Part shown: one piece after another, positions 36,368-63,190 of the stretch
Numbering within the stretch: position 1 is the first letter of the stretch
How the letters are laid out: the number at the start of each line of letters is the position of its first letter
Assembly (NCBI GenBank): GCA_021018815.1
Contig: JAITYX010000065.1
Coordinates: forward strand, 2,263,501 to 2,327,500
Direction of reading: 5' to 3'
DNA from: Talinum fruticosum
Taxonomy: Eukaryota > Streptophyta > Magnoliopsida > Caryophyllales > Talinaceae
Length of the DNA stretch: 64,000 bases
Notes under the pieces: generated by a model
What the model saw: the letters and a program-made list of their open reading frames with translations, nothing else
The model's database searches: none
Told to the model about the DNA's origin: nothing
Made by a program: the position numbers and the translations under genes

Positions 36368-37860
36368 ATGCCTCAACAAGGAGTCCGGTACCTCTTTCCC
36401 TCGCTCTACACGTCAATCTACAGTAGTGCGACCCACCGTGATGCACACAACACCGGTTCGGTCAATCTTTCGTTGTAGGACGGTACCCAAAAATAATTCC
36501 CCTCCAATGGACAAAGTACTAGAACAATCTTCCATCCTTGCTTTGCTTAATGAATCCTCAACCAAGATGGAAGCTCGAGTTGAGGCTGAGGACAAAAAGA
36601 TAGAATCCATATCTAAAAAACTTACGAGTCATCTTAAAGACTTTTGAGGATCATAAGAATGGAGGTGAAGAAGAAAATCGCTCTCCACCTAATCCAGAAT
36701 CTTCTCCGAAATCAGCCACGAACGTAAGCCTAAGTTTGATCCACGCGTAGATCGGATAGAACAAATGTTAAGGGAATTCTCCATATTCAAGAGTCACTAC
36801 TTTGATCTTACGGGATTTACTTCAATCCCCAAAGGGAAGTTACATCCCAAGTTTACTATGCCGGACATTAAGTTTCTTGGTTCGAAAATCCCAGTCATCA
36901 TGTTTGCAACTTCTTAAGAGCAATGACTCTTACAAATGTACCTGAAGATACTTACCATATCATCGTCCCATGCACCTTCTACGGTGATGTAATGAAGTGG
37001 TACAATGCAGTTGACCCATATAAGGTTACTAATTGGAATGATCCGTGTAAGGGGTTCCTAAATCAGTACTTCTATAACACCGATCTACCAGTCACCCTCA
37101 AAGACTTGGAGTTGATCAAACAAGGGGAGAAAGAGAGCTTTATTGACTTTCTCACCAGATGGAGGGCAAAGACTGCCCACATGGTGGACCGACCTTTCGA
37201 GAAAGACCAAGTTAGAATAATTGTGAAGAACCTTCGGCCTGCCTATAGCCATCACCTCAAATTCCTACCGTTCATGAGCTTCACAATCCTTAAAGATGGA
37301 GGCATGCTGATAGAAGAAGAGATGTCCGCCACGAACACAAAAGCCGTGGCTAGATATAGAGGTGATTATCAATATGAAGGCAAGAAAACCTCCAATGAAG
37401 GAAATACTAGAAGGGGTGTAGATGTCAATGCCCTTAATAGGTATAATGACTACACTCCTATAGATACTACTTACGCTCAAGCCCTTGATCATCTATTGTC
37501 TAAGGGGAAGATTGAGTTACCACCTGTAAGAGTAGAATCGAAACTGTAGAACATTTGAAAAGCTGGGATGTAGAACAAGCTAGAGAGTATGTTATGAAAT
37601 GATGAACTCCCTCTCCCTAAGGTCACTCGGAAATCTAACAATAATAAGAATCCATTTAGCAAGTACTTTAGCTATCTTCTCCGAACCCATTCCGGATAAG
37701 TGGGATCCATCAGTCTTCAATCAAGACATCAATGAGTTCAAACCACTTGCTAACTTACCTTCCCTAGACCTAAAAGTCCATGTATTATGGTAAGGTATAA
37801 AGAAGATGTGTACGAAATGAAAAATGATAGTGATGATAACTTCTAGGACACACCACATTT
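36368..37860 (+). pseudogene. gag: element C gag (Tat type)
   Basis: A likely start is the ATG at 36368. The capsid part (36923-37549) reads YGDVMKWYNAV, LKDLELIKQGEKESFIDFLT and RWRAKTAHM, the Retrotrans_gag core. Before it, FTMPDIKFL lies near 36855. After it, YTPIDTTYAQALDHLLSKGK (37450-37510) leads to the linker before protease. Several frameshifts and stops (e.g. near 36914, 37547). The product would form the RNA-packaging particle. Confidence 0.85.
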
Positions 37861-38239
37861 AGAAGAAGATAAGTTTTAGGGAGAACCAAAAAGCCCCGAA
37901 ATCCTGTTCCTTACCGGATCCGGACGATATAATATACAAATGGGTCCACAACAGACTTAAGAAGCCCCAAAAGAAAAAGAAGTTGCTAAAGAAGAAGACT
38001 CAATCATAAAACAGACTTCAAAAACTTAAAGCTAATATCTCCATCTGGAAATTCATATCTCGCCTCCCAAAAGCATAGGCATGCCTTAATTGGTGTACTT
38101 AGTAAAATTGAGGTCTCTCCCAAAAGAACACCTGAGGAGGTGGTAGGATTGGTCAATAATAGGGGTGAAACCATAGCGTTCGACAAAAAGGACCTACTCG
38201 AGGAAGGCATTGCACACAACAATGCCTTTTACTTAATCA

Positions 38240-38780
38240 GTAACTTATATAAACAAGTTTATCCCTTTAACCTTAGTAGATAATGGATCTGTTGTAAATG
38301 TTTGTCCTTGGAGGATCGCAAAAGGTTAGGCATTAGAGAACAATAACTCTCTAAGGAAACTATTCATCTTAGAGCCTATGATAACTCCAAAAGAACAGCT
38401 TTTGGATCGTGACTCTTCCGATCAATGTCAAACCCGTGGTGAAAAACATCTTTCCAAGTCCAAGACATTCCAACTACTTTCAACCTTCTTCTAGGACGCC
38501 ATTGGTTACATGACCACCAGACAATTCCCTCTACACTACATCAGAAAGTTAAAATGATCATCAAAGGTCAAACAATAACCATCAATGGAGACAGCCTTTG
38601 TGCCTCCATCACCTCTAAAGAATCTGTCGTTGAAATTGAGCATGATGCTAATGATGAAGAGCTCTATGAAATTGAGCATGTCGTTGCTTGTAGACAAGGA
38701 TGAAGCACCTTTTAACTTCAATCCTTATGTCAACCCTAGTGTCTACTCAATGCTAAGGAAGAGGGGTATTTTCCTGGCTT
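38240..38780 (+). pseudogene. pol: element C aspartic protease region
   Basis: Near 38262-38310 one frame reads LVDNGSVVNVCPWRIAK: the Asp-Asn-Gly-Ser active-site loop seen in Tat proteases. Downstream pieces are RAYDNSK, INVKPVV, LLLGR.WLHDH and MIIKGQTITINGDSLCASIT (38553-38615), which map the rest of the domain. At least three frame changes and stops. It would process the polyprotein. Confidence 0.8.
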
Positions 38781-39640
38781 AGCTATACGCAGGAGGGTGT
38801 ACCACCCAGTCTTTCCGCCCGTTGAACCCACCAACAACTACAAGTTTGGATTAGGCTATCATCTAACTGCTAAGGAAATAGCCAAAGCTAAATGGGAGAT
38901 ACAAACTAGGAAGACTACACCATTCATATTTCATTCAATCAAACCCTTTCCTCGTACTCTAAATGGGCGATTATTGAAATATGGGGATGACTTTCCCTAC
39001 TATGGTTTTTCCGAGCCTTACTACATAAAAGAGAAGGGTTTCGTGGTACTTGGTTTAGAGGTCTTTAAAGACTACAATGTGCTGGAAAAAGAGGCACCCT
39101 ACCTCCTCGAGGAGGAACAGTCCACAAAAGACTGGACCAATCTGGCTGAGAGAAACATCTTTGGTCCGTTATTCGGACGGGAGAAAAATTAGAGCGGATT
39201 TTAGTTTCGGTACTTGTCCCAAGCTATGTTGCACCCGCAATTTGATCCGTCCAAATTCATCACCGATGTCGACATCGAAGGGTCAAAGCATATCACTTTG
39301 ATTGACATTGAGGAAGGCCAAGAATTTGCTATTATTTTAGGAGAGCATTCTATTTTTGAGTCTAGCACTAGGGTCGTTGTTTCGTTTCTAATTCCGTTAG
39401 TCCATCTTCTACCATTTCTATTTTCGAGTCCGATGTACTCATTTCTTCATTCAATAAGATGAATATTTCCGCTTACTCGTTGCCTCCTCCTATTCTTAAT
39501 TGTTTTTCCTCTTATGATGAACAAGAAATCCCTAAAGAATTAATAAAATCTATGGAAGATCATGAAAATTGCTCACCTATAATAGACGAAACAATAACAA
39601 TTAACTTAGGATATGCAAACGAACCTTAAGAGGTCAAAAT
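38781..39640 (+). pseudogene. pol: element C protease-RT linker
   Basis: Open frame 38797-39192 (FKDYNVLEKEAPYL; TDWTNL-like end) and then SQAMLHPQFDPSKFITDVDI near 39214, parts of the region between protease and RT of Tat elements. No catalytic role is assigned. Frame breaks near 39190 and 39460. Confidence 0.6.
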
Positions 39641-40510
39641 TGGGAAAACATTAAATCCAAAAGAGCAGAAGCAATTCATTTTGCTCCTTACCGAATTGAT
39701 AGACGTCTTTGCATGGTCCTATAAAGACATGCCAGGGATAGATCTAAGTATAGCGGAACATAGAATTCCACTTTACAAAGATGCTAAGCCAATTAAGCAA
39801 AAGCTTAGGAGAATGAAACCTAAATGGGCACTGAAGATTAAAGAAGAAGTTTAGAAGCAATTAGAAGTCGGGTTCATTAAAGTGGTCCAAGTACCCTCGG
39901 TGGGTAGTAAACATAGTGCTAGTTTGAAAGAATGATGGTAGGGTCCGAATGCGCATCGATTTTAGGGATTTGAACAAGGTGAGCCCTAAGGTTGACTTCC
40001 CGTTACCTCATATCGACATTCTTTTGGATAATAAAGCAAGTTATGCTTTACTCTCATTCATGGATGGCTATGTTGGACATAATCAAGTAAAGATGGCTGA
40101 AGAAGACATAGAGAAAACGACCTTTATCACTCAATGGGGGATGTATTATGATGTAGTAATGCCTTTTGGGCTAAAAATGCCGAGCCACGTATCAAAGGAC
40201 GATCACGATGTTACTACATGATATGATACGTAAGGAAGTCGAAATTTACATGGATGACATGATCATCAAATCTAAAGATAGGGTGGGGAACTTACCTAGA
40301 CTTCGAAAATTTTTCGAAAGACTAAGAAAGTATAACATGCTCCTTACCCTACAAAAGTGCGCCTTTGGGGTAACCTCGAGAAAACTGCTAGACTACCTGG
40401 TTAGTCTTAGAGGAATTGAAGTCAATCCATCCACGATCAAAGTCATCCAAGAGATTCCACCACTGAAGACAAAGAAAGAGATACGAGGTTTCCTAGGATG
40501 TTTATAGTAC
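39640..40510 (+). pseudogene. pol: element C reverse transcriptase
   Basis: RT starts with ELIDVFAWSYKDMPGIDLSI near 39690-39750. Then come IDFRDLNKVSPKVDFPLPHI (39952-40011), ALLSFMDGYVGHNQVKMAEE and VMPFGLK. After a frameshift near 40180 the catalytic box IYMDDMIIKS is at 40244-40273, both Asp intact. Stops at 39852 and before 39949. The next part (40430-40500) reads TKKEIRGFLGCL, the RT end. Confidence 0.92.
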
Positions 40511-41040
40511 ATTAGTCATTTCATATCAAAACTAACTATGGTTCGTGAACTCATGTTCAAGAAGCATAAAAAAGGAGCTAAGCCTATTTGGGATGAAGAG
40601 TGCCAAAAATCATTGGAAAAGATTAAGGAGTGTTTGGCCAATCCGCCGGTGCTAGTTTCGCCTCAACTAGGAAAGCCTTTGCTCCTATACCTCGCTACTG
40701 ACGAAACCGCAATGGGAGCCATGTTAGCTCACGGGATGGAAATAAGGAATACGTAGTGTATTATCTAAGCAAGAAATTCTTAGATTACGAGACTTGGTAT
40801 ACGCCCTTAGAGAAAACATCATTGGCTTTAGTCTAGGCTACCAAGAAGCTTAGACACTACATGTTGGCCCACACGGTGCATGTAGTAGCACTAAAGGATC
40901 CCATCAAATACATTCTTGAGCAACCAACCATTAGTAGCAAGATAGCTAGATGGACGAGTCATGTTATCGAAATTTGAACTCAAGTATGTCCCTCAAAAGG
41001 CAATCAAAGAAGGGCAGTATAAGAATTCTTAGCTGATCTA
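40511..41040 (+). pseudogene. pol: element C RNase H (first)
   Basis: 40538-40756 reads WDEECQKSLEKIKECLANPP and KPLLLYLATDETAMGAMLA, the RNase H start with its first Asp. Later pieces near 40850-40990 include a frame with SKFELKYVPQKAIKEGQ. Several stops (40507, 40756 and beyond). Confidence 0.85.
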
Positions 41041-41089
41041 CCGGTGACTTAATCACAACCCGAACATCTTGACTTCCTAGATGAAAACA

Positions 41090-41483
41090 TTCTACAAGTA
41101 AAGGTCAACATGTGAACAATGTACTTTGATGGCACTTCCAACTAGAAGGGCTTTGGAGTAGGGATCCTTCTAGTCTCATTACGATAAATACTCCTATTTA
41201 AGTTAAACTCGATTTTAAGGTCATCAACAACGCTGCAAAATATGAAGCATACATCACAGGACTTCAAGATGCCATAGAAATAGGAGTCAAGAATATCCGG
41301 GTTTTTGGTGACTCTAGTCCGATTATTAACCGGATTTCATAGAAATGGAAGGTATGTAGTAAAGCCTTGGCACCCTACCAAGCACATTTGATGGAGTTAG
41401 CAAAATATTTCGATAATATATCCTACACATACCTTCCAAGGGATGACAACTAATTCGCGGATGCCCTAGCCAAGTTAGCATGC
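41090..41483 (+). pseudogene. pol: element C second (archaeal-type) RNase H
   Basis: At 41117-41175 one frame reads TMYFDGTSN, stop, KGFGVGILL, and near 41300 VFGDS. This is the additional RNase H placed between the first RNase H and integrase, diagnostic of the Tat lineage. It carries several stops. Confidence 0.78.
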
Positions 41484-42838
41484 ATGATTAATATCCCTAG
41501 CGGCATTCATTCAATGCCTATTGATATAGAACGACAGAGTCAACTCGCGCACATATACGCACTCGAAGGGTCTAGTACTGGCCAAACTAGTTTGTACCAT
41601 GACATCTATCGGTACATAGAAAACCAAGAATACCCGTCGGACTCCACACCTAGAGCCCAACGAGCCATTCGTATGCTAGCAGCACAGTTCTTCATAAACC
41701 AAGGGCAGTTGTACACGAAAACCAACATAGAAATTAACTTACTTTGTGTTAATCAACATGAAGCGAGCACATAATGACTGATATTTGTGGTATGTAATAT
41801 GGACTCCATATGAATGGAAGAATGTTGGTTCAAAAATTTCGAAGTTAGGATATTACTTGGTTGACCATGGTGGCGTATTGTCATGAATTTGTTACAAGAT
41901 GTCACAAGTGTCAAGTGTATGCGAACTTGTATCTCCAACCACCTTCCTTTTTAACAACACTTGCATCACCCCGGCAATTTTTAATTTGGGACATTAAGAT
42001 CATCGGTAAAGTGACCCCTAAAGGAATGGGTGGTCACGAGTTGGTGTTATTATCAATTGACTACTTTACCATGTGGGTAGAAGCGAGCATCTTATGCAAC
42101 ACGAACGTCAAAGCACGTGGCGAAGTTCATGCTTGGAACATTATCTATCGATATGGGGTACCACATGAACCGATTAGTGACCATGGTAGTCACTTCAAAA
42201 AGAAGTAGCAGACTGTCTGGACAAGTATAAAATCAAACACTATAGGTCTTCTCCCCGTCGTCCTCGGACCAACGGAGCGAGTCAAGGCCGCTAATAAGAA
42301 TATCTCGAAAGATAGTGGAGAAAATGGTTGTTAGTTATAAGGATTGGCCCAATAAATTTCCCTTCACTTTATAGGGCTATCGGACCTCCATTAGAACCTC
42401 AACGGGAGCAACACACTAGTCCCTAGTATATGGTATGGAAGTAGTCCTTCCAATAGAAATTGCCATTCCTTCGTTGCGAATCATTACAAAATGTTAGATT
42501 CCTAAAGCGAGAATGGACTAAGGCACGCTACGAGGAGTTGGTGTTGCTAGATGAAAGGCGCTTAAATGCGTTACATAATGTCCAAATATATCAAGCACGT
42601 ATATCAAGGGAATTTGACTAGAAGGTTAACCCTTGTAATTTGCATATTGGATATTTGGTCCTTAAGGAGATTAGAGCACTAATTTAGGATCCTCAAGGAA
42701 ACTTTAGGCCCAATCGGCAAGGCCCATTCATACTTAGTCAAATACGGCTGGCGGGAGCGATTAAAGTGACTCGATTTGGATGGAGAAGAAAATTTTTACT
42801 ATACAAACTTGGATCGGTTAAAGAAATACTATGTTTAG
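41484..42838 (+). pseudogene. pol: element C integrase, catalytic Glu changed to Lys
   Basis: Zinc-binding part: YCHEFVTRCHKCQVYANL (41876-41930). Catalytic core: first Asp in LIWDIKIIGKV, second in EPISDHGSHF (42170-42200). Near 42284 the motif around the third acid reads VKAANKNIS; Lys stands where Tat integrases have Glu, one G-to-A change at a CG site on the opposite strand. The C-terminus ends TNLDRLKKYYV and stop at 42836-42838. Frameshifts between segments. Confidence 0.88.
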
Positions 42839-43300: not shown

Positions 43301-43453
43301 CTAGTCAATTCTCACTTTCTTCCTTATCGCATCGTCTGGATTCACTCGCATCCTCCTAGGTTTGTTTCTTAAGTTCCTCGATCCTGCGAGCCCTCCTCTC
43401 CTCATCTTCTTTAGCTTCTGCTTCCCTCCAATGAGCGTGTTCATCCATCTATG

Positions 43454-45145
43454 TGATGGAACCTTTGAGCAAGAGGCAAGGATGGGCAAAGAAGGCTTAA
43501 GGTGCAAAATCACACACCGGATAGAATGGTGAATTTGTGCACGGTTTGGGGAAATGAGGGGATGGAGGCCTTTTAGGTGGGGTTGGGGTTTGGGTTTGAT
43601 TTTTAGAGGAGGTGTATGTAAGATCTGGAGGAAGACCTGGGAAAAAGTGGGGAAACAACCAAGAATTCAAACACCCAGAAATGAAGCCAAACAGCAGCTA
43701 CTGAGCGCACGAGATTCCGGATTGACACTTGTTTGTTTATTTTGGGTGTGGGGAACGATAGAGACTTGGGTTGAGCTGAAATTTAGGGGACAACAACTCC
43801 ACTTAATGGGTAAGAAGTGGGGAAAAATTAAAGTGCAATAGGCTAAGGGTTTGGGAGAGGGGAAATTTGTAAGTCAAGTAACCTGGATAGAGAGAATAAG
43901 AACCAAAGGTTAAGATACACCACCTATGGAGACTTAGGGCACCTAAGCAAGGTTGAGATAAGACACACCACTCAAACTCACCAAGGACTTGTTAGAACAC
44001 CATTTATCTTACCAAGGCTAAGATAAGCAAACAAGAATTCGAGGGTTTACAGTGGCAAAGCTTAACATAGATTTCAACATAAATTAATTTTTACACGGTA
44101 GCACTTGAAGTATTTATAATGCTTACAAAATGGGGTTGAAAACATGAAACCCTACGGTTCTAAATTACAAACTTAACCTCCAAGCATTACTTTTACACTC
44201 AGCTCAAAATACACAAAAGCAGAAAGCATAAAGTAAGCTCTAAAATCAGCCGACACAAAAAGTGAAAAGTACGATCGTCGCTTTCATTTTTCAATCGCTT
44301 TCATTTTTCAGGTGCATTTTCCAATGGCTACATCTTCACAGGTTCTAATCCAATTGCTAATCTCTTGGCCTTTCGGGAAATCTTGAAATGTCCGCTTTCC
44401 ATCCATATGCTGTTTGCTTAATTTGACCCCTAATTGAAGAAGTTACACCATAAAGAGTTAACAAAGGTCAACTGGGTGATTTGGATTGTCGACTTGGGCA
44501 AAAGTTGTTTAAACTTATTCTTTCTGTTTTTGGTGGGCAAACCAAGACTCCCGCTTAGGCAAGGACTCAACAAGGGTTTCTCACACAAATTTGGGATCCC
44601 CATCCCAACCTAAACTCAATATATACAGACTTGGAAACGAGTTATGCATGCGCCTAAAGTGGTCCTGTAAGTATCGTTTTTAGGGTTGAATTTAAACGAT
44701 CATATCTCCCGCTAACAACTCCAATTGTGGCATAAAAGGTATGTTTAGAAATCTCAATGAATAATATTTCCAGGGATATGTGGCTTTCCATGGGGATGGA
44801 AAATTGAGGGAGTTATGATTAGTTTACTCGAGAAAGGTCAAGCTGCTCGTTCAAAACACTACCTTCCTTTTGTTAGCTCCTTTCTTTATTGTTTCCATCC
44901 TAAATGAGAAAGCCCATATCCCCCTTCTAGGGTACTCCTTAAGGCTTCTTCTCACAAAATTTGGAGGTTTAACTCCTCCTCAAAGTCGAGTTATGGGGCA
45001 TATAAGTGCATTGCCCAAACGCGTAGGTCAGGCGTAATCATTCAATGCTTTACTTGGTTGTGAAAAGGCCTTCATTTTAGCTTGGCTTAGACTTGGAGAT
45101 TAATCCTCTTCTTTGGAAATATTTTCCCTGGTCACTTTTCCATCA
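43454..45145 (-). repeat. 3' LTR of element F
   Basis: Matches 47124-48806 throughout; ends TGATGG/CCATCA. Confidence 0.9.
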
Positions 45146-45166
45146 TCCTCCCCGGTTGCCCTCAAA
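45146..45166 (-). other. polypurine tract of element F
   Basis: The minus strand reads TTGAGGGCAACCGGGGAGGA just before the LTR start TGATGGAAAAG. Confidence 0.75.
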
Positions 45167-45539
45167 TTTTTGAGGTATCATCTTTGAAATTGAGGGTCAA
45201 GCCGGGATCATTGAAACGAGGTTGAAACACTTTGCTCTCTGGGCAAGGCGATCTTGTGGGGATTGTCATTTATCATGCTTAGACTTGGATTGGACCTTCA
45301 TCTCTAGGTAGTATCTTAGATGTTTCTTGACCCCACGGCTTGGCAAGACTTGGAATATCCAAGAGAATGTAGAGACCTTGCGGTGGCAAGTGGATCATAG
45401 CGAGCATCGCACATTGAACACTTTGTCATGATGCCTTGGACATCTCTCGTCGTGCTAGGCCACCTGGTGTTTCTCTTTGAGCTTCAACAAGATCTTTTAT
45501 TCCCTAAAATAAGTAGCAAGGCAGCCAACATGCACCACT

Positions 45540-47022
45540 TGAATGAACAGCCCACTTGTATTTCATTAGGTACACCAAATCATGCATGCTCGAGCAAGTA
45601 CCCTTCATAAGCTAAGAACTCTTGTTTAGGATGTTTCATACATTTTGGAGGCAGCCTTTTAAGGTTCCTCATAGCAAATGCACCCTTCAACATTAGAAGC
45701 TCTCCTTTATCTTCCACCTTGGTTACCTCTTTAGGTTCCTCCATGAGATAGAGCTCCTTTTCTTGCTTAATTTCATCCACTTTGGGCAGCCCACACTCGG
45801 CTATAACAATAACTCTTCGGTTGGGAAATTTTGATATAAAATGATCAACTCCTTGGCACTTAAAACACCTCTAGGCTCAGTTAGGGCCATGGGATATTTT
45901 GGGAGGAGGGGCTGGAATTTTCAGTGGGGAAACAAGGGCTGGGTAGAATGTTTTTGTGGGTAAAATGAGTTTGTAGGCGTGTGTTTGGTGGGCAAAGGAG
46001 GGAAACTACCCTTGTCAAAGAGATCTTCCTTGGGCATGTCTCGTTTGATGGGTTTGGTTTTGGCTTTTGGCTTATGGAAATTGGTCTTTTGGAGTAGGGT
46101 AGGAGTGAGAGGGGCTATGGACATTTTGTGGTCAACTATGGGGAAGGAATAAGAGACCCTAAACCCATCATAAGCTATTCTCTTATCAAATAACAAGGGT
46201 CATTCCAAAAGACTAAACAAACACCCTCAAACATGTCATCATTCCACATCCCAATAACACTTGACTTCCCAAAACTAAAAGAGAGTCAACAACAAGGATG
46301 AACTAGGAGGCTAATACCTTGACAAAGCCGAGGAATGTCATATTGAAGAAGGTAGACCAAGGCTTGAGTCTCCAAGCTCCCCTTGCTAGTAAGCTCTTCT
46401 ACCTCACTTGGCAATGAAGGGAAGGTAATATCCCATGCTTCTCAAACTCCGGAAGCTCTTGATGGCCATAGTTATCAAAGATTGGAAGTAGTTCATCTTA
46501 GCTTGGATCTCCCTCTTCAAACACCTTGTGGAATTCATTACTTTCAGCCAATGCAAGGCCGTGGGGCTCCTTGGACTGAAGGAGGGAGCTTTTGAGAAGG
46601 AAAGGAGGGAAGGGCCATGAGTTTTGGTAAGGGAAGTGGGGAGCTCTTTTGGTGAGAAGATGGGGTGCTTTGTGGTGAGTAAAGGGGCTGGATGTTTGAG
46701 GTTATGGTCAAGGGTTCTTTTGGTGGGGGAGGGGAAGTTGGACAGTGGGTTTTGGTGATAAAAGGGGCTGGATAGTTTTGGTTAGGGATGGAGAAGAGGA
46801 GAGGGCTGAAAGTTTGGGGAAAGAGAAAACAAACTCCCCTTGTTGATGGGTTTGTTCTTTGTGGGAGGGGGCTTGGGAAACTTACCGTTGGAGGATTGGA
46901 CCTCCTTGTGATTACCTCTCTTGACTCCTCCAAACTAATCCAATGACATTGAGTTTTATCTCCTTCTCAAAAGCCTTCACCAACTTCTCAACCTTCTTCT
47001 TAAGCAAACCATGCCTACTCAT
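45540..47022 (-). pseudogene. gag: element F degenerate gag
   Basis: A frame starts at 47022 with MSRHGLLKKKVEKLVKAFEK, a basic, possibly helical N-terminus. After a frameshift near 46930 a Pro/Ser-rich stretch follows (46933-46544). Near 45826-45872 the minus strand reads CFKCQGVDHFISKFPNRRVI: a CCHC knuckle whose last Cys is Phe, followed by the PNRRVI motif common in Tekay-like gag. 45780-45580 reads PPKCMKHPKQEFLAYEGYLL. No protease or RT follows. Several stops; capsid core not recognised. Confidence 0.65.
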
Positions 47023-47107
47023 TTTGCGGTGTTGGGGCTGAATGTGTTTGGGGTTTTTTTGTAGGGGTATTTAGGCTAGGAAGCTTGTCCAAGGAGAGTA
47101 GCCATAA

Positions 47108-47123
47108 GCTCTGATACCAAATC
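47108..47123 (-). other. primer binding site of element F
   Basis: The minus strand reads GATTTGGTATCAGAGC after the LTR end CCATCA: an exact TGGTATCAGAGC tRNA-iMet complement. Confidence 0.93.
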
Positions 47124-48806
47124 TGATGGAATGTTGGAGCAAGAGGCAAGGATGGGCAAAGAAGGGTTAAGGCGCAAAATCACACACCCGGACAAAATAG
47201 TGAATCATGTACCTTGTTTGGGGTAAATGAGTGGATAGAGACCTTTTACATAGAGTTTAGGTTTTATTTTTATAAGAGGTGTACTTACGATCAGGGGAAG
47301 ACGTGGGAAAAAGTGGGGAAAAAACCAAGAACTCGAACACCCGTAAATGAAGCCAAACGACATCTCCGAGCGCACAGGATTCCAGATTGACACACTTTAT
47401 TTGTTTTGGATATGGGGAATGAGAGAGAGCTTAGGTTGAGCTAAAATTTGGGGGACAACAACTCCACTTACTGGGTAAGAAGTGGGGAAATTTTAAAGTT
47501 CAATAGGATAAGGGTTTTGAAGAGGGGAAATTTGTAAGTCATGTAACCGGATAGAGAGACTAAGCACCAAAGGTTAAGACACACCACCTATGGAGACTTA
47601 GGGCACCTAAGAAAGGTTGAGATAAGACACACCACTTAAACTCGCTAAGGACATGTTAGAGCACCACTTAGCTTGCCAAGGCTAAGATAAGTAAACAAGA
47701 ATTCTTGGGTTTAGAGATCAAAGCTCAACTTAGATTTCAACATAAACTGATTTTTACAAGGAAGCACTTGAAGTATTTATAGTGCTTACAAAATGGAGCT
47801 GAAAACATGAACCCTACTTGTCCTAAATTAAAAAATTAACCTCAAAGCATTGCAAATACACTCAGCTCAAAAGACATAAAAGCATAAAGCATAAAGTAAG
47901 CTGTAAAATCAGCCAACACAAAAGGTGAAAAGTACAGTACGTCACTTTCACTGTTCGAGCGCTTTTCAGTGCATTTTCCAACGGCTATATCTTCATGTAT
48001 TCTAATCCAAATGCTGATATCTTGGAATTTCGGGAAATTTTAAAATTTCCTCTTTCCATCCATATGCCGTTTGCGTAATTTGACCCCGAATTGAAGAAGT
48101 TTCACCGGAAAGAGTTGACAAAGGTCAACCGGGTGATCTCGACTCGCGACTTGGGCAAAAGTGGTTCAAATTTATTCTTTCCATTTTCTAGTGGACAAAC
48201 CAAGACTCCCCTTAGGAAACGACTCATAAAGGTTGTCTTACACAAATTTAGGTTCCCCAACCCAACCTAAACTCAAGATATGCAGCTTGGAAACAAGTCA
48301 TGCATGCACCTAAAGTGGTCGTCCACTTGGCATTTTTAGGGCTGAATTCAAACGATCATATCTCCCAGCTCACAACTCCAATTGAAGTATAAAAGCTATG
48401 TCTGGAACACTCAATGACTAAGCTTTCCATGGATATGTGGCTTGCCATCGGGGATGCAAAATTGAGGGAGTTATGACCAGTTTACTTAGCAAAGGTCAAG
48501 CTGCTTGTTCAAAACACTACCTTCCTTTTGCTAGCTCCTTTCTTTATTGTTTCCATCCTAAATGAGAAAGCCCATATTCCTCCCTTCTAGGGTACTCCTT
48601 AAGGATTCTTCTCACAAAATTTGGAGGTTTAGCTCCTCCTCAATGTCGAGTTTTGGGGCAAACAAGTGCATTTCCTAAACGCCTAGGGTCAGGCGGAATC
48701 ATTCAATGCTTTACTTGGTCGTGAAAAGGCCTTCATTTCAGCTTGGCTTAGACTTGGAGATTGATCCTCTTCTTTGGAAATATTTTGCCTGGTGACCTTT
48801 CCATCA
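47124..48806 (-). repeat. 5' LTR of element F
   Basis: 1683 bp, matching 43454-45145. Confidence 0.9.
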
Positions 48807-50057
48807 TTGTAGGATCACTTCACGAATCCGAAAAGGTGCTGCAATAGGGATAACTCTTCTTCGGTCCCATTCTCGCATTCTCGGTGCCTTGTGTCATTTG
48901 GGGTCAGCCTCTTTTATCCACTCCGGATAAAATTTAGAAACTACGATAGATTTCTTATCTCTAGGTTTGAGTAACCTCGGTAGGTTTTTCCAAGTAATCA
49001 ACGCATATCGGAACCCGCCTCGAGCTGCCAAAGCCCGCAAATATTTTAGAAGTGGTAGGTGAGATGCAATCCGGATAAGGGATCTCTTGGACTCGCCCCA
49101 TTTGCTGCATTACACGCTCGGGAAGTATTACGTACTCGGTTTCTAAACCCAACAAATGTGCAAACGGATGTTTTTAGTATGTATCCAAAATTGGGACATC
49201 CTCCAATGTTCGATGTACCACTAGATGGGATGGCTAGCTCTAAACCGGGCCTCCCACCAAGAAGGTAAATGGTTAGGCAAAGCACTCATTCCGTTGCCAC
49301 CGACAAAACTACGTAGCTAGATACTCGGTCCACTCCTGCCAGTGCTTGAACCAATTTAAGTTGCTCCACCAACCAGATCCGCACACAACATATAGTAAAA
49401 TTATTAGAGTCCTGCATGACCAGATTTATCATTATTTACGACCCAAAAGGAGAAAAATCAAAATAAAAAAATAGCAAAAAGTGAGACATTGGACAAAGCG
49501 AAGGACTTTTTAGCCTCGTCGGCGCCGGATCGCCAATTCTAGGCCAGTGCCGCCCACCTAGCCACACTGGCTAGTTCCTGAATATTTTTTCGCTTACTGT
49601 AATAACAGGGGCTTGCCCACGAAGTCCTCATTTGGATTCACTTCAATCGGTCCATCCCTATAATAGTCTCTACGACGATCAAAGGAGTAAGGGAGCAGTG
49701 ATCCTCCTAACGCTCCATGAAGTTCAACAGCGTAGTAGGAGCCATATCCATGTGGCATCCCACTAAATAGGAAACCACTTATTAGGAATGCAATTATAGC
49801 CCGACACCTTTGAATATGCGCACACCCCGAAGAATACATCGGGTGGTAGTGCGACATCCGGTTCATTAGATGCACTTCGTCCTTGATTAGAATCCAACTT
49901 TGATTCCTATTATTCAGCTTCGAAGACGTTTATATGTTTCATACATATTGGTAGAAGGCGTCGGAACCATAGGTTTGGTCCGACGATGAATGCCTAGGAT
50001 GACTTCGAATTCTTCGAGAAGGGGATATAATTCTTTATCCCCAAACCTAAAGACATG

Positions 50058-50496
50058 GGCCCTGTTAGCTGTTAGTCTGTTTGTATCACCTGTTTGCTAT
50101 TAGTCTGTTTGAATTAGCTGTTTACATTAACTGTTTGAATTAACTGTTTACATTAGCTGTTTGAATTAGTCTGTTTCTTGAAAAGGTGTTTGTTAAAATT
50201 GGCTTTTCGAGAAAAAAATGTTTGGTGAAATTTCATTTATGCCCTTACGTCTAAGTGTCTTTTAAATAAATAAATAAATATTTTTATTCATCATTTTAGT
50301 TTTTTCAAATATAATTATATTGTGTTATGTATACAAATTATCTTCATTTATAAAACTTTATTTTCTTACTATTTTTACAAAATTTATATTTATTTTCTAC
50401 CAAATATAATATTTATTATATTCAATTGAAATAAAAAATAATATCAAGTAGTAGTAGTAGTAGTAGTAATAATAATAATAATAATAATAAATATAA

Positions 50497-50544
<48 letters not shown>

Positions 50545-50819
50545 TAATAAATAAAATAATAAATAAATAAATAAATAAGGGTTGGTGACATATGTGGTAA
50601 TTTCTCCTAACTTGTGGGCAAATGTGTCATTTTCACAAACAGACTCTTCCCCAAAAGGTTAATGGGAAGAGTTGTTTGAGAAAGAGTTGTTTGGGGCTAA
50701 ACAACTCTTTCAAACAGCTGATTAACCAAATACTACCTTAACTTTTTGGACCAAGTCAAAATAGCTAAACCCCCAAACAACTCTTTTTCCCAAACAGACT
50801 GTTACAACCAAACAGGGCC
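50058..50819. mobile_element. MITE, PIF/Harbinger-like, in antisense gene 2
   Basis: Terminal inverted repeat GGCCCTGTT...AACAGGGCC, with further inverted similarity (GTCTGTTTG near both ends), flanked by ATG on both sides (50055-50057 and 50820-50822). 762 bp, no coding capacity, internal (TAA)n. Three-base duplication and terminal sequence suggest Harbinger/Tourist type, though TTA is the usual target. Element D shows the uninterrupted CAT at 63430-63445. Confidence 0.85.
50451..50578. repeat. (TAA)n/(TAG)n microsatellite in MITE
   Basis: (TAG) units followed by long (TAA) tracts and (TAAA) units. Confidence 0.95.
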
Positions 50820-51070
50820 ATGGTATTCTAGACTCCAAAAGGCCACTACAGTCCTTAATAGAGTCCAATAGATTTTTCGGTCATAAAGGGACAACCCTAC
50901 TTTATCAACTTCAGTCATCTCGTGCATTTAGCGGGATAGTTCAAGTAATGAAATTCATCTTTGAGTATTAAAAGGAATGAAAAGGCACTGTGGATTTTCT
51001 TAGGAACTGCTTTTCGAAGGAGTTATAAAGGGAGATTGAAGGTGTAATTTTCAGTGACCAATCATCCTCC

Positions 51071-51078
51071 TTTTTATA
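51071..51078 (-). promoter_or_regulatory. TATA box of antisense gene 2 in C
   Basis: The minus strand reads GCTATAAAAAGGAGG, 113 bp before the ATG at 50958. D has CTATAAATATG at 63183, 89 bp before its ATG. Confidence 0.6.
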
Positions 51079-51508
51079 GCAGATTCCCAGCATCGGAGTC
51101 CTCCTCCATCACATCACTCGTAGTCATCCGGAGCCCGAGTTAGCAGGCGCCAACCAGACTAGCTTTTATCACATCACATCACATCACTGGTTCCCCTGGA
51201 TTTTTTCGGTTCGAGCATTCTTTGTACATTGGGCCAATTATGGTTTTCTACTTCTGGCCCATTTTGACCCAGCTTTTTATTTTTGGACCATGCACTTAAC
51301 ATTCGTCATTTTTTATTTTAATATTTTCTTTTGGGGGAATGGGGGCTAGTGTATTTTTTCGTTTGTCTCGTGCAATTTTTGCTTAGAATTTTTCACATCG
51401 GATAAATGAAAGAAAGCATTTTAGAATTGAGTCTTTGCATTCATCTCATTGTATAGAGTCAAATGATACAAAACATTAATATTAACTAAGCACCCTAGAA
51501 GGAGTTGT
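51079..51508 (-). other. spacer between antisense genes 1 and 2 in C
   Basis: Contains a block matching D 62820-62945 (GGGGGAATGGGGGCTAGTG on the minus-reading comparison). It is a conserved 3' flank of gene 1 and may hold its polyadenylation region. No gene. Confidence 0.6.
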
Positions 51509-54067
51509 TCAATCTTCACCATCGGAGGCATCATCGAAGATATAATTGCCAAAATCCTCCAAGATTGAAGTGGAAACCGATCTGTCCGCATCATCTTGTG
51601 AGGAGCTAGCCCCATAATCCCAAGATCATTGAGAAGTCTCATGAGAAGGTCCGCTATACGACATCCGAGTGAAAATAGTACGGGTTACCATGAGGGTCAA
51701 GCGCTTGTAGAGGCATGACATCCATATAGGCCTCGGAAGAGCTAGGCCCAAGAAGAGAAGAACTAGGCCCATGTACGAATGTACTTGGCCCCGCCACGAA
51801 GCATTAAGCTGGTGACAACATCGTGAAGAATGATGGGAAGTACCAACTCCGACCATGTTACTAGACGACATCTATTGGCTAGAAGGATGTGTTTGAGCCT
51901 CGGAGACGCCAAGGAAACCTCCCAATGGAGGGGACCTAGATCGGCGATCTTACAAAAATAATGGGGTGATTAGCAAATCTACTAAAAGCTCATGAGTTAC
52001 TACTTTAATTAACTAAAGCTCACCCGAAATGTTCGGAACGTCTTTCCGGTAAACAAGTCCTTAGAAGCTTTGAGGGAAGACTGGAGACCGATGGGCATGG
52101 TTCTAGATTGCTCCCGATCGTACTACAAATTCATTGTGTTAGCAAGACACTTTTAGCATCGAACTAAAAGTAAAAAGAGCATAATACTCTTATGCCTTTC
52201 TAGTTTTTGGAAGAGGATGCCCCACACATTCATCTTCGGGAATTTTCGGCATCCTACCTTAGCATGGGGACACCCCGGGTTGAGATACATCGACATCATG
52301 TCTTGGAATGCAGATATCACTCGAGAAAAGATATAGAAGATAAAATTAATTTCCACAAAATAAATTCAATTACATAAAGTGTAGATGAAGACTCACCAAT
52401 CGGGTCATGATTGGTCCCAAATATTGAGCACGGGACGAATTCATATCCAAAAGCTGGGTGTAAAGGTACCCGGTGGTTATTTCCTCTTCCGTCTGTTGAG
52501 TTATGGAGCAAAAATAAAACATCGTTTGTGGAGGATCTTGGGGAACAAAAGGAGTCCACTTGTTATAATGAATTTTGGCGTAACCCACTCACCAAGATAC
52601 CAACAAAAGCCAAATGGAACCTCAAACAAAATCCTCCTTTCGCTCAATTCCCATGCTACGCCTAAGCTTGGAGGAAGTTGAGTTTGGATCCAAGGATGGA
52701 AATTAGCCTGCACAAACAGGACCTATGAGAATATAAACAAGAAACTAGCGAAATTAGGCAGCAAAAGCCCAACCATTTAACCGAAACCGGCCAGCACGGT
52801 TAGTGCCCACACGCCCACCATAGGCAAGTGGTGGGGAAGCAAACTGGACAAAAAGAAGGGGAAATTTCCGGGCCATTCTAGCTTAAAATTGAAAGCTTAA
52901 ATGTGACATACTGTAGCCACACGGTTAAGGGCGAACCTCAAATAGGGAATATAATGTTCCTTTCGCCATTGGAGGTGAACTTTGGCCCATGCTACCGAGA
53001 CTCGGGAAAGAAGGATAGTTCCTTGAATTCGGTGAAAGATAGGAAAGTACTTGTATAGCCACGACTGCAAGTTTGCAAAGCAAGTGAGATCCTTATCCGT
53101 GCAAGATAAGATATTTTAGAAATTAAAAGAAGAGGTCGAGCATACCTAAATAATCTTCCACAAGTCATGTAAGGGCATGTAATTCATCAAGTCGAGTCTC
53201 AGCTATTGTGTGCTTCACCCCGAACATAAACCCCTTATAAGACAAGTGTAGGCGGGCACACCCCAATTAAGGTCCTTAATTTTGTCAAAGTCCACTAAGT
53301 TCACCAAATAATGGGCATACACTTAGGTAGCTTGATCCGAGAAGATAGATGTGCTTAGCATAAGGGCTATTACTATCGAGACTTCTTGTTGTGGAGTATG
53401 TTAAGCTCATAACTCAACATTTTCGAAGGCCTAAAAAGAAGAGTATATTTGAAGAAATTGGCCTTAGGAAACCGACTAGCAATGGGACCAAAAAGGTGAC
53501 GCAAATAGTCACGGTTTTTATACAAGTCATAGTCATAAACTAAAGATTCCGCCGAAAAGCCCACACCCGAAAGAATGACAAAGTCAAGAGGCGTAATAGT
53601 CATTTCCCAAATGAGAGATGAAAGGTGTAAGTGGTATCCCAAAACCGTTCACTAATGGCCCGGGTAGGGTCACCTCCTTCCGGTCACACAAATGGTTTAA
53701 AGTAACAATGAAAGGACCAAACCTAACACTATTCATGATGTGCTTTAATGGGTAATTCCTCTCCTTGAACGTCTCGATGAATTTCCCGATAGCACGAGTT
53801 ACTCGAATAGTGCCCTTCTACAAAATAGAAATCCAACAAGATTTTAGTTAGTAGCAGTACCACTCCAAATATGCAAATGAAGAAATCCAAGGCAACAAGC
53901 TTACCGAAGGAGACATAGCAACAGAAGAGACATGGCTCTCGGCCTCCACCAAGAGGTCATTGAGGCTACGAGTCATGGTGAGGGCGTCATTCCTGTTCCA
54001 AGAAGTTATCATGGACTAGGGCTTCAACTCTTGTCCTCTTAATGGGATGAGCATGTCCTTTAGACAT
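51509..54067 (-). pseudogene. antisense gene 1 of element C: five-exon plant-mobile-domain gene
   Basis: Proposed exons on the minus strand: 54067-53904, 53817-53146, 53064-52912, 52707-about 52190, 51948-51509, with GT donors after exons 1-3, a GC-like donor after exon 4 and AG acceptors. Exon 1 starts MSKGHAHPIKRTRVEA. Exon 2 has the PMD core: EMTITPLDFVILSGVGFSAE, DYLRHLFGPI and LNWGVPAYTCLIRGL. Exon 4 reads ELSERRILFEVPFGFCWYL. The end is DFGNYIFDDASDGED, stop. Frameshifts and stops (exon 1 end, exon 2) make it non-coding now. PMD proteins include MAIN/MAIL1 of Arabidopsis; the TE-borne role is unknown. Confidence 0.82.
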
Positions 54068-54206
54068 TTTTGAAGAAATTGTGTGTGAAAACCAAACTAG
54101 TTTTCTCAAGACAAGAAGGAGAAAACTAGAGCAAAGTTAGAGTAAGCAAGAGGAAGCAAAGAGAGGAGTAAGTGAAGTGTGCAAACTAAACACACCAAAG
54201 CCCTCT

Positions 54207-54213
54207 TTTTATA
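54207..54213 (-). promoter_or_regulatory. TATA box of antisense gene 1 in C
   Basis: The minus strand reads CCCTATAAAAAGAGGGC, about 140 bp before the ATG at 54067. Following bases (TGGTGTGTTT, TTTGCACAC) recur in the same order after the TATA box of D (60041), so the promoter is conserved. Confidence 0.75.
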
Positions 54214-54809: not shown

Positions 54810-54824
54810 GTAAAGGGGGCTAAC
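54810..54824 (+). other. polypurine tract of element C
   Basis: GTAAAGGGGGCTAAC before LTR start TGTACAAGCC. D has AAAGTGGGGGCTAAC before TGTGGACACC. Confidence 0.82.
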
Positions 54825-56810
54825 TGTACAAGCCTAAAGCATGTCACTCATGTCTCTTTTATTTCCGTATTTTATCTTTTCAGCCCGGTGATGAAATCCC
54901 TGTCTTGTTTGCAAATTCGGATCATAGTGGGAGTCCGATTGGCATGATGGAAGCTAGTGAACTACAAAAACCTTTTAGAACTAAAAATCAACCTTATTTG
55001 CTTTGGGCCGGTCCACAAACCCATTTCTTTCATCCTGTCCAAGCTCGGGTTAATGCTTAAGGTCAAACCTTGGCCGCGCAGTGAAACAAGCCGTACTATA
55101 TTTTAAACACTACATTTTGTCTTCAACGTCCAACCAAGGCACGGAGCTTAATTCGTCCGTACGACGTCGCATTGGTTAGCACCGCATTTCATGGCAAAAT
55201 TTACGAAAACGCTGCGTTTTACTCCAAGCGTCTAACCGTGACACGAAGCCAACCGCACAAAACGACACCGTATTTGACCCACGTCGCATTTATGAGGAAT
55301 TTTTCCAAAACATTGGGTTTTGCTCTAGAGACCAGCTGTAACACGAAGTGTGCTTTGACCGTGCGACGTCGTTTCTTGACCGGTACTCGTGATTCTAAAC
55401 TTTGTCCATGGGATTCCGGTTGAAGGAAGATTTGGTCCAGATTGTTTCTAATTTTCTGGTCGGGTCACTCGCTGAATTTTTTACGATTATTTAAGCTGCT
55501 CCTTAGGTCATTTTGTGACCTAATCTCTTCACTATAAATAGAGAGCTTAGTCTCTCATTTTAGAGATGGCAATTTCCTACGCTAAACTCTCTCGAAATCT
55601 AACTAAAGCTATTAAATGCATTACGTATTTTGATCTCTTGGTTTCTTTTCAGCTAATCCTCATTACAATACCGATATTCAATTCCTTAACTTTCACCATT
55701 AACATACATCATTCTACCTTTACTAAAATTCACAAAAAGCCACTCTTAGTTCACCACTGTCACGTTTATAGATTCGGTTCAAGATCAAGATCAGCAGGTG
55801 GGACAACCTAAGGGTGCTCATTACCTTCATGGTTTTAACAATTTATTAAATTTATGTTATTTATCGCTTTCTATATTGTGGAGCAAAGATGTAATCGCTT
55901 TTAATTCCTCCCCACTCGCTGTAATCTTTTTTATTTCTTTCACTTCCCTTTTGCTTTTCTTACGGCTTTCCTATATGCTATTTATCACTTTCCTAGCATG
56001 TTTGATTGATTTAATTTCGCACTAAATATGTTGCATGTTTCCTTGAGACACATTTCCTAAACTCACATCTTAAATCAGTAAAGGTCATTTGTTGACGGGC
56101 GGAATAGAAGGGCTTATCCCTATGTTTCGTACCTTCGCCCCGAATCTAGATTCTCGGTTCCGGACTAATAGAGTCAAATTGTAAACCTCTCTCAAACTTA
56201 GTATTTTCCATACTAAGATTAAAGAGTCGTATTTATTTTTATTAGTTTTTATCTCTCAAATCTAACCTAGCGACTCTTGTTTTCATTTTTAATTCTCTTT
56301 AATCTGCTCCTCGATATTTTTAACTTAAAATGGAAAAAATAAAATTTTATTTATGACAGTTTAAGCCATGGACTGAGACCGATCACCTTTGTCACTGCCC
56401 ATTGCTAGTGCTGGCAACCGTACAATGCTGATTCTTGCCGGCACTGGACGGTCATGGGCAAGGCTTTGGTCTAAGCTGGTGTTTTTACACTTGTTTTGGC
56501 CCAAAAGCCTTGTGGCGTAAATAAACCTATTTTGTTTTGTTATTTTCTTAAGTTGTGAAATAATATCCAAAGGCTCCGAAAAGTAATTTCAAAAATAAAA
56601 GATTAACAAAACTCGCTGATCATTATTCCGATTAATCTATTTTAAATCAAATTATAAAAATCGGAAATCTTTTTAAGAGGCACATCCCCATTTCTAACAA
56701 ACTTTCAAAAAACCATCTTAAAAAAATTATCTTAAAAAAAGAGACCGCGGAAGGTTCGATCCAGATCCGATGCCCTCTATAGAGGAAAGGTGGGGGTCGG
56801 AGGTTCTTAT
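54825..56810 (+). repeat. 3' LTR of element C
   Basis: Starts TGTACAAGCC after the polypurine tract and ends AGGTTCTTAT(A) before the flanking AGATG. It matches 9850-11649 with extra sequence at 55020-55150. The final A may belong to LTR or duplication. Confidence 0.88.
55533..55540 (+). promoter_or_regulatory. TATA box of C 3' LTR
   Basis: TATAAATAGAGAGC, conserved in D and, with one change, in the 5' LTR. Confidence 0.65.
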
Positions 56811-57655
56811 AGATGAAATTCAAACTGTGGCCAAGATGAAGTCATAATGCACACCAGACGAGAATGAAAAACACATAAAGAACTTAAAAGCCATGAACAT
56901 ATTGATGTGCACTATTGATGCCTCATAATACAATAGAGTATCAGCTTGTGATATCGCACAAGAGGTGTGGGACACTCTTGTCACCACCTATTAAGGCACA
57001 AGCCATGTGAGATAAGCAAAGATATGTTAGTACCTTCACAAGTATGAAATCTTCAAGATAGAGGCTGACGAGAACATAACTCGGATGTACATTCGCTTCA
57101 CTTACATTGTCAACAATCTCAAATCACTTGTAAAGAAGATGAGCGATGAAGAAGTAGTCCGAAATCTTATGAGGAGTCTTCTGAAGAAAAGATAGGGCCT
57201 AAAGGTGACAGCAATCAAGGAGGCTCAAGACCCGACCAAGCTAAAGTTGGATGAACTCATTTCGAAGCTTCTTACCCATGAATTACATCTTGAGGAGGAA
57301 GAATATTAGGTTAGCACCAAGAAGAACATTTCTCAAAGGAATCTTGTCCTAGTTTGAGCTCCACAAACTCGAAGAAGATCCCATGACACTTTTTACCGGA
57401 GGCTTTAAACATTTGATGAAGTATAAGAAGTGATAGAAGAAGCCTAAACTTGAGATCATCAAGAAAGAAATAAAAGGTAAATTCTCATCCCCTTCAAATT
57501 CTCCTCTAACTAAGAACTCCGGTTGCTTTGAATGTGGTAGAAAGGAACACATTGCAAAAGAATGCCCAAAGAGAAAGAAAGATCGAAAGAAAAAGAAGGC
57601 AATGATGGAAACCTCGAGTAATGAAGAGTCATATTGTGACAATGACTTATGAAAA
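56811..57655 (+). pseudogene. gag: copia-2 gag, C-terminal piece with intact zinc knuckle
   Basis: It continues the gag of 9675-9849 with DEIQTVAKMK, then NLKAMNILMCTIDAS, YNRVSACDIAQEVWDTLV and further UBN2-like sequence. A complete knuckle CFECGRKEHIAKEC (57524-57565) and a basic KRKKDRKKKK tail follow. Stops appear at 56847, 56932, 56991 and elsewhere. Frame ends at 57651. Confidence 0.88.
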
Positions 57656-59407
57656 TGATTTAGGGTTTTGAAGATGCATTTTAGAAAGTAGGGATGAACC
57701 TTTATTAAGATTTTTCGAATTTTATTAATTAGTCAATGTTTGAATGGCAATTTTATTAATTCTTTTATTTTGGAATCTATTTTTAGAATTCTCGGGATCT
57801 TATTTTCTAATTAAGGAATAAAGTAAAATTAGGGTTTTGGTCCTGTCGTGAGGCTTTAAGGCCGGATTGGTGTAAAAACACCAATCTAGACCGAAGCCTC
57901 ACCTGCTCGTGCCAGGAGAAGGCGGGCGTTGGCTAGAGGCGGGGCGACGGAGTTGCCGGTAAGTTTTTAGGACAGAAAAACTAAAAATAAAAAAAATTTT
58001 CTCTTCCAATCTTAGTATGAGAAAACTAAGACTAAAAGAGGTTAAAATGACTCCATCGGTCTTTGAACCAAGAATCGGATTTGGGGGCGAGGGTACGAAA
58101 CGTAGGGAAACCCCTTCCGTTCCTGGTCATCCGAAGACGACCATTACTAGTTATAGTAGTGTACTAGAATGATGTGAGAAAACAAGCATACATCGACGTG
58201 TTAAACGAAATTAAAGCAAGAAAAACATAACAAGGAAAACAATAAGGAAAATGATAAAATTGAAAGTAAAGAAAGCGATAAAGAAAAGCGAGAAATAGAA
58301 AAATTACATCGGTCCGGAAGGAATTTGAAGCGATTACATCTCTTAAACCACAAATCGGAAAGCAATAAAAATAGAAATAAATATAACCGTTTGAAGGCTG
58401 AATTATGGCCCTCACGTTGTCCCACCTTGGTGATATGAATCTTCACACTCGGATCTCTTGATGCAATGGTGACAATCCAAATAAAAGGGCTAGTTTTGTG
58501 AATGGTATATAGGGTGTAGTAATGATTAGTTGAATGAGTGCCCGAGAGATCAAAATAATTGAATATTCTTTAGCTCTTTACATAGATTAAACGATAGCTT
58601 AGTAAAAAGATGAGTGTCTTATGAAAATTTCAGCAGAGTAACGTTTAGATGAGAGTTCTTTGGTTAGCATTCAGCAACGATAATGTTATGGCTGGAAGCC
58701 GCATGGGACCGAGAGCCATACGTCTCTATTTATAGGAGAGGACCTAGGTCACAAATAACTTAGGGTTTGCCTCCATCTAGCCATCCAAAAACTGAAATAA
58801 AACCGGGCCAAATCCTACGAGATAGAACCGGATTAGAAAGAGATAAAAGCGGATCGAACCGGATAAAAGGGGAGAGGCGGGCACCGGCCAACAAGATGCT
58901 CTTAGGGTTTCGTGCCCTAGCTGTGTCTCCAAGGACTCTCCAAGCCAAAACGCAATGTTCCACCATGCTTTTAGAAGGTGAGCGCCGGCCACGACATCGT
59001 TATGAGGGTAAAAGCTTCTAACCTCGTGTGGGCTGTCTTATGAAGCTTAAAACGTAGCACTTTGATGCTCCCGATCAGGTCTTCATCTCCTTGTACTCGG
59101 ATGAAAGTAGAATGCGGTACTCGGACTCGGAATTTCCCAAGTACACAGCATTGGACTCCACAATCTCTAAAGGCTCGGCCGGGTTCTTGGACGGTCCGAA
59201 AGAAAAGAAGATTTATGGACTGACCCAAGGAAAAAGGCGCTTTATTTGGTGCTCGGGGTTCTTTGTTGTTTACTGGCTTATGATGCACCAATCGATCACA
59301 GTCTGAGATCCAAATCCATAAATAGGACTCGGGATTATCATCATTGGGCCAACACAACAAAATATAAAAATAAAGAGATAAAGGACGACACTTTTTAGGT
59401 GTCCACA
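57656..59407 (-). repeat. 3' LTR of element D (end truncated)
   Basis: On the minus strand it starts TGTGGACACC at 59407. It shares with the C LTRs the TATAAATAGAGA box, GATGTAATCGCTT, AATTCCT and the GC-rich block (57840-57960). The last 100 or so bases with the GTTCCTACA end are absent; the border at 57656 is approximate. Confidence 0.8.
58724..58733 (-). promoter_or_regulatory. TATA box of D LTR
   Basis: Minus strand CCTATAAATAGAGACG, as in the C LTRs. Confidence 0.65.
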
Positions 59408-59425
59408 GTTAGCCCCCACTTTGAC
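59408..59425 (-). other. polypurine tract of element D
   Basis: Minus strand GTCAAAGTGGGGGCTAAC before the LTR start. Confidence 0.82.
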
Positions 59426-60040: not shown

Positions 60041-60047
60041 TATAAAA
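60041..60047 (+). promoter_or_regulatory. TATA box of antisense gene 1 in D
   Basis: GCCTATAAAATGAGG, followed by TGGTGTGTTT and TTTGCACAC as in C. About 130 bp before the first codon. Confidence 0.75.
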
Positions 60048-63182: not shown

Positions 63183-63190
63183 TATAAATA
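63183..63190 (+). promoter_or_regulatory. TATA box of antisense gene 2 in D
   Basis: CCTATAAATATGATCG, 89 bp before the ATG at 63279. Confidence 0.6.

Follow-up and report, generated by a model that had tools for sequence, protein, structure and literature searches.

Antisense plant mobile domain genes with predicted introns in a Tat-type retrotransposon family of Talinum fruticosum

Two antisense genes in elements C and D

We analysed a 64,000-nucleotide stretch of Talinum fruticosum contig JAITYX010000065.1 (the window, by which we mean this whole stretch), which lies in a 620-Mb genome and is plant DNA packed with nested long terminal repeat (LTR) elements. Two of these elements, named here C and D, share a cassette of two genes. 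Element C, on the plus strand, belongs to the Tat type of Ty3/gypsy and is dead; past pol it continues with gene 2 and gene 1, both on the minus strand, and then with a polypurine tract and the 3' LTR. Gene 1 belongs to the plant mobile domain (PMD) family, and gene 2 is DUF7745/PMD-like. Element D is a mirror image of this arrangement and holds the same two-gene cassette. The features of the two elements are listed below.

36872-42205, plus strand: gag-pol of element C, in broken pieces (Pfam matches, some pieces below cut-off)
36872-37546, plus strand: gag of C (Pfam)
39928-40504, plus strand: reverse transcriptase (RT) of C (Pfam)
40508-40974, plus strand: RNase H of C, with RT_RNaseH at 40702-40974 (Pfam)
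41202-41450, plus strand: second RNase H of C (RVT_3; Pfam 1.2e-4, above cut-off)
from 41849, plus strand: start of the integrase of C (weak Integrase_H2C2; Pfam)
43304-50958, minus strand: gene 2 of C (DUF7745/PMD-like, charged tail), split by an LTR element and an insert resembling a miniature inverted-repeat transposable element (MITE)
51071-51078, minus strand: TATA box of C gene 2
51333-51346, plus strand: internal polypurine-tract-like motif of C, between gene 1 and gene 2
51509-54067, minus strand: gene 1 of C (PMD), predicted exons 54067-53905, 53817-53146, 53064-52912, 52707-about 52199, 52122-52024 and about 51950-51509
54206-54213, minus strand: TATA box of C gene 1
54812-54823, plus strand: 3' polypurine tract of C
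54824 to about 56812: 3' LTR of C, following the 3' polypurine tract
57745-59412, minus strand: 3' LTR of D, approximate limits
about 59417: polypurine tract of D
60041-60047, plus strand: TATA box of D gene 1
60172-62715, plus strand: gene 1 of D (PMD), predicted exons to 60333, 60415-61089, 61172-61296, 61509-62030, 62109-62207 and 62294-62715
62929-62941, minus strand: internal polypurine-tract-like motif of D
63183-63190, plus strand: TATA box of D gene 2
63279-63715, plus strand: gene 2 of D, most of the middle deleted, charged tail retained

Gene 1 is a member of the PMD family PF10536. With its exons joined, it scored above the curated cut-off of 34.9 bits in both elements (D, E 3.2e-15, 56.6 bits; C, E 2.4e-11, 43.8 bits). 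Lone exons of the D gene reached 25.6 and 24.2 bits, and lone pieces of the C gene gave no PF10536 match. An earlier interpretation of this DNA made from its letters only (the sequence-only reading) had held that lack of a PMD match of the joined exons would refute it, and the match was found. Protein searches with gene 1 returned three plant PMD proteins at 25-28% identity, one of which was already in the profile used for one of the searches. A PDB search with the Rhododendron relative P0001 as query, not gene 1 itself, gave one weak unrelated match, and no relatives were found among viral contigs (one stretch matched a pattern, none was confirmed).

The pieces of C gene 2, read joined, matched DUF7745 (PF24924) at 3.8e-6 and 26.7 bits against a cut-off of 26.0, and PMD at 4.6e-5 and 23.2 bits, which is under the 34.9 cut-off; searched one by one, the same pieces gave nothing significant in Pfam. 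The head piece of D gene 2 scored 15.5 bits against DUF7745, again under the cut-off. The gene 2 tails of C and D are 71% identical across 150 bp (E 4e-23), and the gene is broken in both elements. A protein search with gene 2 found no relatives, and BLAST of the gene 1 protein against the gene 2 protein gave no significant match (best E 0.1). No reading of gene 1 or gene 2 matched PF04195 (Transposase_28) in Pfam, even with E thresholds of 5 and 10. The PF10536 and PF24924 matches bear out the earlier claim of two antisense PMD-family genes between pol and the 3' LTR, the second of them PMD/DUF7745-like.

Aligned with each other, C and D agree in gene order, in the positions of the TATA boxes, in the exons and in most splice sites, as the sequence-only reading had proposed for order, exon borders and promoters. 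In gene 1, donor 2 and the start codon are missing from D, and donor 4 is missing from C. The gene 1 TATA box falls in the identical alignment column in the two elements; the "promoters" of both genes are in fact TATA boxes at matching places. Gene 1 comprises six predicted exons and five introns, rather than the five exons first proposed. C and D have in common three donors out of five and no fewer than four of the five acceptors, the exons are 55-69% identical, and the gene is a pseudogene in both. Intron 1 (60335-60415 in D) is 78% identical between C and D, above the exons. About 0.55 kb separates gene 1 from gene 2, which share a strand and follow each other head to tail.

In element C the gag, RT_RNaseH_2 and RVT_3 matches each exceed the Pfam cut-off; the RT pieces are marginally below it (28.4 and 27.0 against 29.6 bits) and the integrase scores weakly (15.5 against 25.5). 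The mark of the Tat clade is an additional RNase H, placed between the RNase H and the integrase in angiosperm Ogre and Retand elements (PMC6317226). The second RNase H of C stands at this place, ahead of the integrase, in agreement with the earlier assignment of C to the Tat type. The integrase of D lies on the strand opposite to D's genes, about 0.7-0.9 kb beyond the window end, and is 47.5% identical to that of C over 40 residues (E 5e-8).

Recurrence, codon constraint and surroundings of the cassette

Further copies were collected from the same genome with D exon 2 as query. Of 1925 candidates, 40 were scored; none of these fell below 85% identity, and one was the copy in the window itself. 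From the remaining 39, the 20 best were fetched as 8-kb stretches, so that more distant and more broken copies are unrepresented. The gene 1 promoter segment and exon 2 were present in 20 of 20 fetched copies, the gene 2 head in 18 and the gene 2 tail in 14. The LTR-start segment was found in 18 and the internal polypurine-like segment in 19, one of these weak and partial. The integrase fell inside the 8-kb stretch in 12 copies, always on the opposite strand. As this arrangement recurs across the fetched copies, the cassette is a regular part of the family, which answers the sequence-only reading's call for a search in other copies and goes against the absence that would have refuted that reading. 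The internal polypurine-like motif resembles the terminal tract and follows a T-rich stretch in both C and D; it could be an internal plus-strand primer site.

Comparison of C with D across 613 codon pairs of gene 1 (11 pairs with stops were excluded) gave proportions of nonsynonymous and synonymous differences (pN and pS) of 0.269 and 0.695 and a dN/dS of 0.17; the shifted frames gave 0.95 and 1.34, and non-coding DNA 0.63-0.88. The differences were biased by codon position inside the gene 1 exons (P 4.5e-22) and not outside them (P 0.83). The dN/dS check proposed from the letters thus indicates selection on the gene 1 protein. Within the family, 21 copies were aligned and 18 of them (D and 17 of the 20 fetched) entered the variant set; L012, L023 and L024, broken inside gene 1, were excluded. 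Variants present in three or more copies (shared variants) fell at codon positions 1, 2 and 3 in numbers of 99, 81 and 160 (P 5.7e-9), whereas singletons were even (287/276/277, P 0.84). In the non-coding control, shared variants were even as well (67/55/67, P 0.39). The excess of shared variants at third positions, together with the evenness of singletons, points to selection while the lineage transposed and to neutral-looking decay after insertion. These data show that the gene 1 protein was under selection before insertion; none was detected afterwards.

In the 18 copies, GT donors of gene 1 were kept in 82 of 88 cells, compared to 76% at 46 control GT sites (binomial P 3e-5). Conservation, measured in 13 segments, was highest in the 5' untranslated region of gene 1, and among the 21 aligned copies the start ATG was present in 14 and the TATA box in 20. 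A programmed frameshift was considered in exon 2 of gene 1, where C and D shift frame at one point with codon constraint on either side. It was rejected, because the aligned family copies vary in length at the frame change, which is therefore ordinary decay and not recoding. An intron at the same point was dropped by inspection, there being no donor in the right phase.

The remaining features of the window concern the setting of the two elements:

43451-48807: LTR element inside C gene 2, with LTRs at 43451-45146 and 47121-48807, 86% identical
about 50058-50814: MITE-like insert in C gene 2, with inverted ends (from comparison with D)

The three minus-strand frames scanned between the LTRs of the element at 43451-48807 gave no pol match; a frame at 45583-45870 inside it is CCHC-like, as judged by eye only. 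LTR-like stretches at 9845-11650 and 54824-56812 have the same orientation and are 81% identical, and the former is probably the 5' LTR of C itself; about 25 kb, a good part of it later insertions, separates it from the gag of C. A stretch resembling a primer-binding site follows the LTR that ends at 11650 and is only probably C's own. An Ogre element would have a primer-binding site for tRNA-Arg besides a PMD-type extra ORF; the stretch is a putative match to tRNA-Arg, and C would be a candidate for Ogre. Immediately upstream of the C gag, at 35517-36102, a 61-bp unit is repeated in tandem about eight times. AT-rich direct repeats of 2.2 kb at 19963-22154 and 25326-27538, 94% identical and 5.4 kb apart, are possibly the LTRs of another element. 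Rfam and tRNA scans of the window gave no matches.

Predicted intron positions common to the element genes and host PMD genes

A PF10536 search of the same genome returned at least 119 matches, among which two multi-exon host-type PMD genes with open exons were read: C22 (L029, PF10536 1e-107) and C4 (L032, 3e-34). Over 200 residues the C22 protein shares 32% identity with a Fagus protein named MAIN-LIKE 1-like, and we accordingly regard C22 as probably MAIN-like. Its predicted introns (marked by a slash) interrupt HVSSAVWEGQ/ERGALR, SLTLLQ/CWSYY and SLKPTD/VEWFPY. In the element, introns 1-3 of gene 1 interrupt HVSSLAISSS/KGSIR, LWKIIE/PWLYEYFP and RVAT/ANFHPW, and the gene 2 intron interrupts PLLLQ/IWLMEH. 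Many copies carry insertions or deletions (indels) in exon 2, and the donor side of intron 2 was for this reason traced backwards from the exon border, at which most copies show LWKIIE or something close to it.

Predicted introns of the host genes C22 and C4 fall at the same places as introns 1-3 of gene 1 and the intron of gene 2, all in phase 0, and three positions are common to gene 1 and C22. Positions were compared in four MAFFT alignments built without intron information. Between C22 and gene 1, intron 1 fell within one column in all four, and introns 2 and 3 were each exact in three; the gene 2 intron corresponded to host intron 2 in two of two alignments. Two other host PMD genes, C52 (L030, profile 1-346) and C106 (L031, 1-296), have the PMD in a single uninterrupted frame, unlike C22 and C4. 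Since shared introns are hard to obtain except by descent, the element genes and host genes of the C22/C4 class most likely descend from an intron-bearing ancestor. The shared introns further suggest that the transfer between host and element, in either direction, did not pass through spliced mRNA. These common positions, which the sequence-only reading did not notice, appear to be new here.

Origin and possible role of the antisense genes

We consider it likely that these loci represent a Tat-clade Ty3/gypsy family in which two PMD-superfamily genes with ancestral introns are carried in antisense, in the interval from pol to the 3' LTR, and that the following steps would hold with it. Gene 1 and gene 2 would each be transcribed from their own promoter and then spliced, and the sense genomic RNA, the template for reverse transcription, would hold the introns as their reverse complement, invisible to the spliceosome. 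Given what is established of retrotransposition, the introns could persist through it because the genes lie antisense, as the sequence-only reading had proposed. The element genes would have come from host PMD genes, or been their source, via a step retaining introns. Homology to MAIN and MAIL1 (PMC5418596, PMC7156037) suggests that the proteins may act in the nucleus on the MAIN/MAIL1 chromatin and silencing pathway, most likely as competitors or decoys favouring the element; a nuclear regulatory or anti-silencing role may thus be supposed.

Several observations weigh against this explanation. Indels or lost sites affect gene 1 in D and in the fetched copies examined. The dS between C and D is close to saturation (1.96, and infinite in two exons), and singletons in the non-coding control were uneven (154/193/166, P 0.009). 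AG acceptors of gene 1 were kept in 78 of 89 cells, not clearly above the 81% at 37 control AG sites (P 0.056), and scoring splice sites at the best offset within 2 bases slightly favoured the sites. The host introns of C22 and C4 are predicted from GT/AG and open frames and not annotated, and in one of the four MAFFT alignments intron 2 is displaced by 16 columns and, in a different one, intron 3 is off by 2. Homology to MAIN/MAIL1 is also the sole ground for a role in silencing. As for gene 2, the variant analysis covered 15 copies. In its first exon, shared variants were biased in the middle (3/7/12, P 0.03) and at the end (4/5/22, P 8e-6), as were those of all gene 2 pieces pooled (54/68/87, P 0.007). 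No bias appeared in the first part of that exon (16/11/16, P 0.50) or in the tail (13/9/13); a later piece gave 18/36/24, its frame being probably wrong or mixed; the pooled singletons were likewise uneven (240/192/208, P 6e-4); and C gene 2 against the family copies showed no third-position excess in the frame used. The evidence for gene 2 is therefore patchy, and the case for selection is weaker here than for gene 1.

Other explanations were weighed against these data. The antisense RNA rather than the protein might matter, by pairing with the genomic RNA and feeding small interfering RNAs (siRNAs) or limiting copy number, with the open reading frames (ORFs) as passengers. Such a role has been proposed generally for antisense ORFs of plant LTR elements (PMC7264820), and PMD genes yield phased siRNAs in tea (PMC10673657); however, the codon bias of shared variants and the dN/dS of 0.17 argue that gene 1 is translated, and passenger ORFs would not hold splice donors above background, which makes this account improbable. 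That the PMD genes are independent insertions, as Mutator-like elements (MULEs) or host gene copies, in two gypsy copies and no part of the elements is scarcely credible: MULE transposons also carry PMD (PMC5418596) and the window is full of nested insertions, but the order from the LTR to the integrase on the opposite strand is identical in copies at many genomic places, which refutes the idea, and C and D are arranged alike despite exons only 55-69% identical. Fusion of gene 1 and gene 2 into one long gene would fit their close head-to-tail placement on one strand; it is very unlikely, as gene 1 closes with a stop codon, gene 2 possesses a TATA box and an ATG of its own, and both genes separately match the PMD family and carry one and the same ancestral intron.

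A reversed direction, in which the intron-bearing host PMD genes are a domesticated retroelement gene, would leave the same anatomy and differ in direction only. Ikeda et al. (2017) favoured domestication, while calling the ancestry of PMD, host or Gypsy, fully open (PMC5418596), and the domestication of an antisense gene could carry its introns along. The introns of a conserved host gene would more simply have arisen in that gene, and we regard the reversed direction as possible but doubtful. Returning to element genes with ancestral introns, a stronger version would hold that the lineage keeps two intron-bearing PMD genes, their introns shared with host MAIN-like silencing genes, antisense and under selection, and that their proteins disarm the host pathway. 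We put this forward tentatively and judge it rather unlikely; if true, the shared introns would mark a route of host-element exchange without an mRNA intermediate.

Earlier publications describe both PMD genes carried by Gypsy elements and antisense ORFs of Tat elements. Gypsy-encoded PMD proteins form the clades PMD-A1 and PMD-A2 (Ikeda et al. 2017, PMC5418596), and the proteins described here are likewise encoded by plant Gypsy elements. Neumann et al. (2019, PMC6317226) found PMD in 57% of Ogre elements, with which element C shares the Tat clade, the placement of the second RNase H and a PMD-type extra ORF. That survey took as extra ORFs single uninterrupted frames no shorter than 250 codons, and the longest exon of gene 1 has about 225; intron-bearing genes such as gene 1 would thus have been passed over. 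In Retand, 104 antisense ORFs form 63 clusters, 97% of which contain TRP28 (PF04195) (Vicient 2025, PMC11963269). The antisense placement is common to Retand and to the cassette of C and D, but the latter has PMD and DUF7745 and no PF04195, and so differs from Retand in this character; the word "introns" does not occur in the accessible text of the Retand paper. Host PMD genes related to MAIN and MAIL belong to the same PF10536 family and, in C22, share the three phase 0 intron positions; the element genes differ from them in lying antisense inside an LTR element and in their divergence. The novelty once suggested for the cassette is accordingly narrowed to its paired, intron-bearing antisense form, which we did not find in the open-access literature, a weak negative. 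Steinbauerova et al. 2011 is reportedly the key earlier survey.

The shared intron positions provide a character that may help to decide, across plants, the direction in which PMD genes moved between hosts and Gypsy elements. The antisense placement suggests how genes with introns can be retained and mobilised by a retroelement. Should the proteins interfere with MAIN/MAIL silencing, a common class of plant repeats would possess a counter-defence system.

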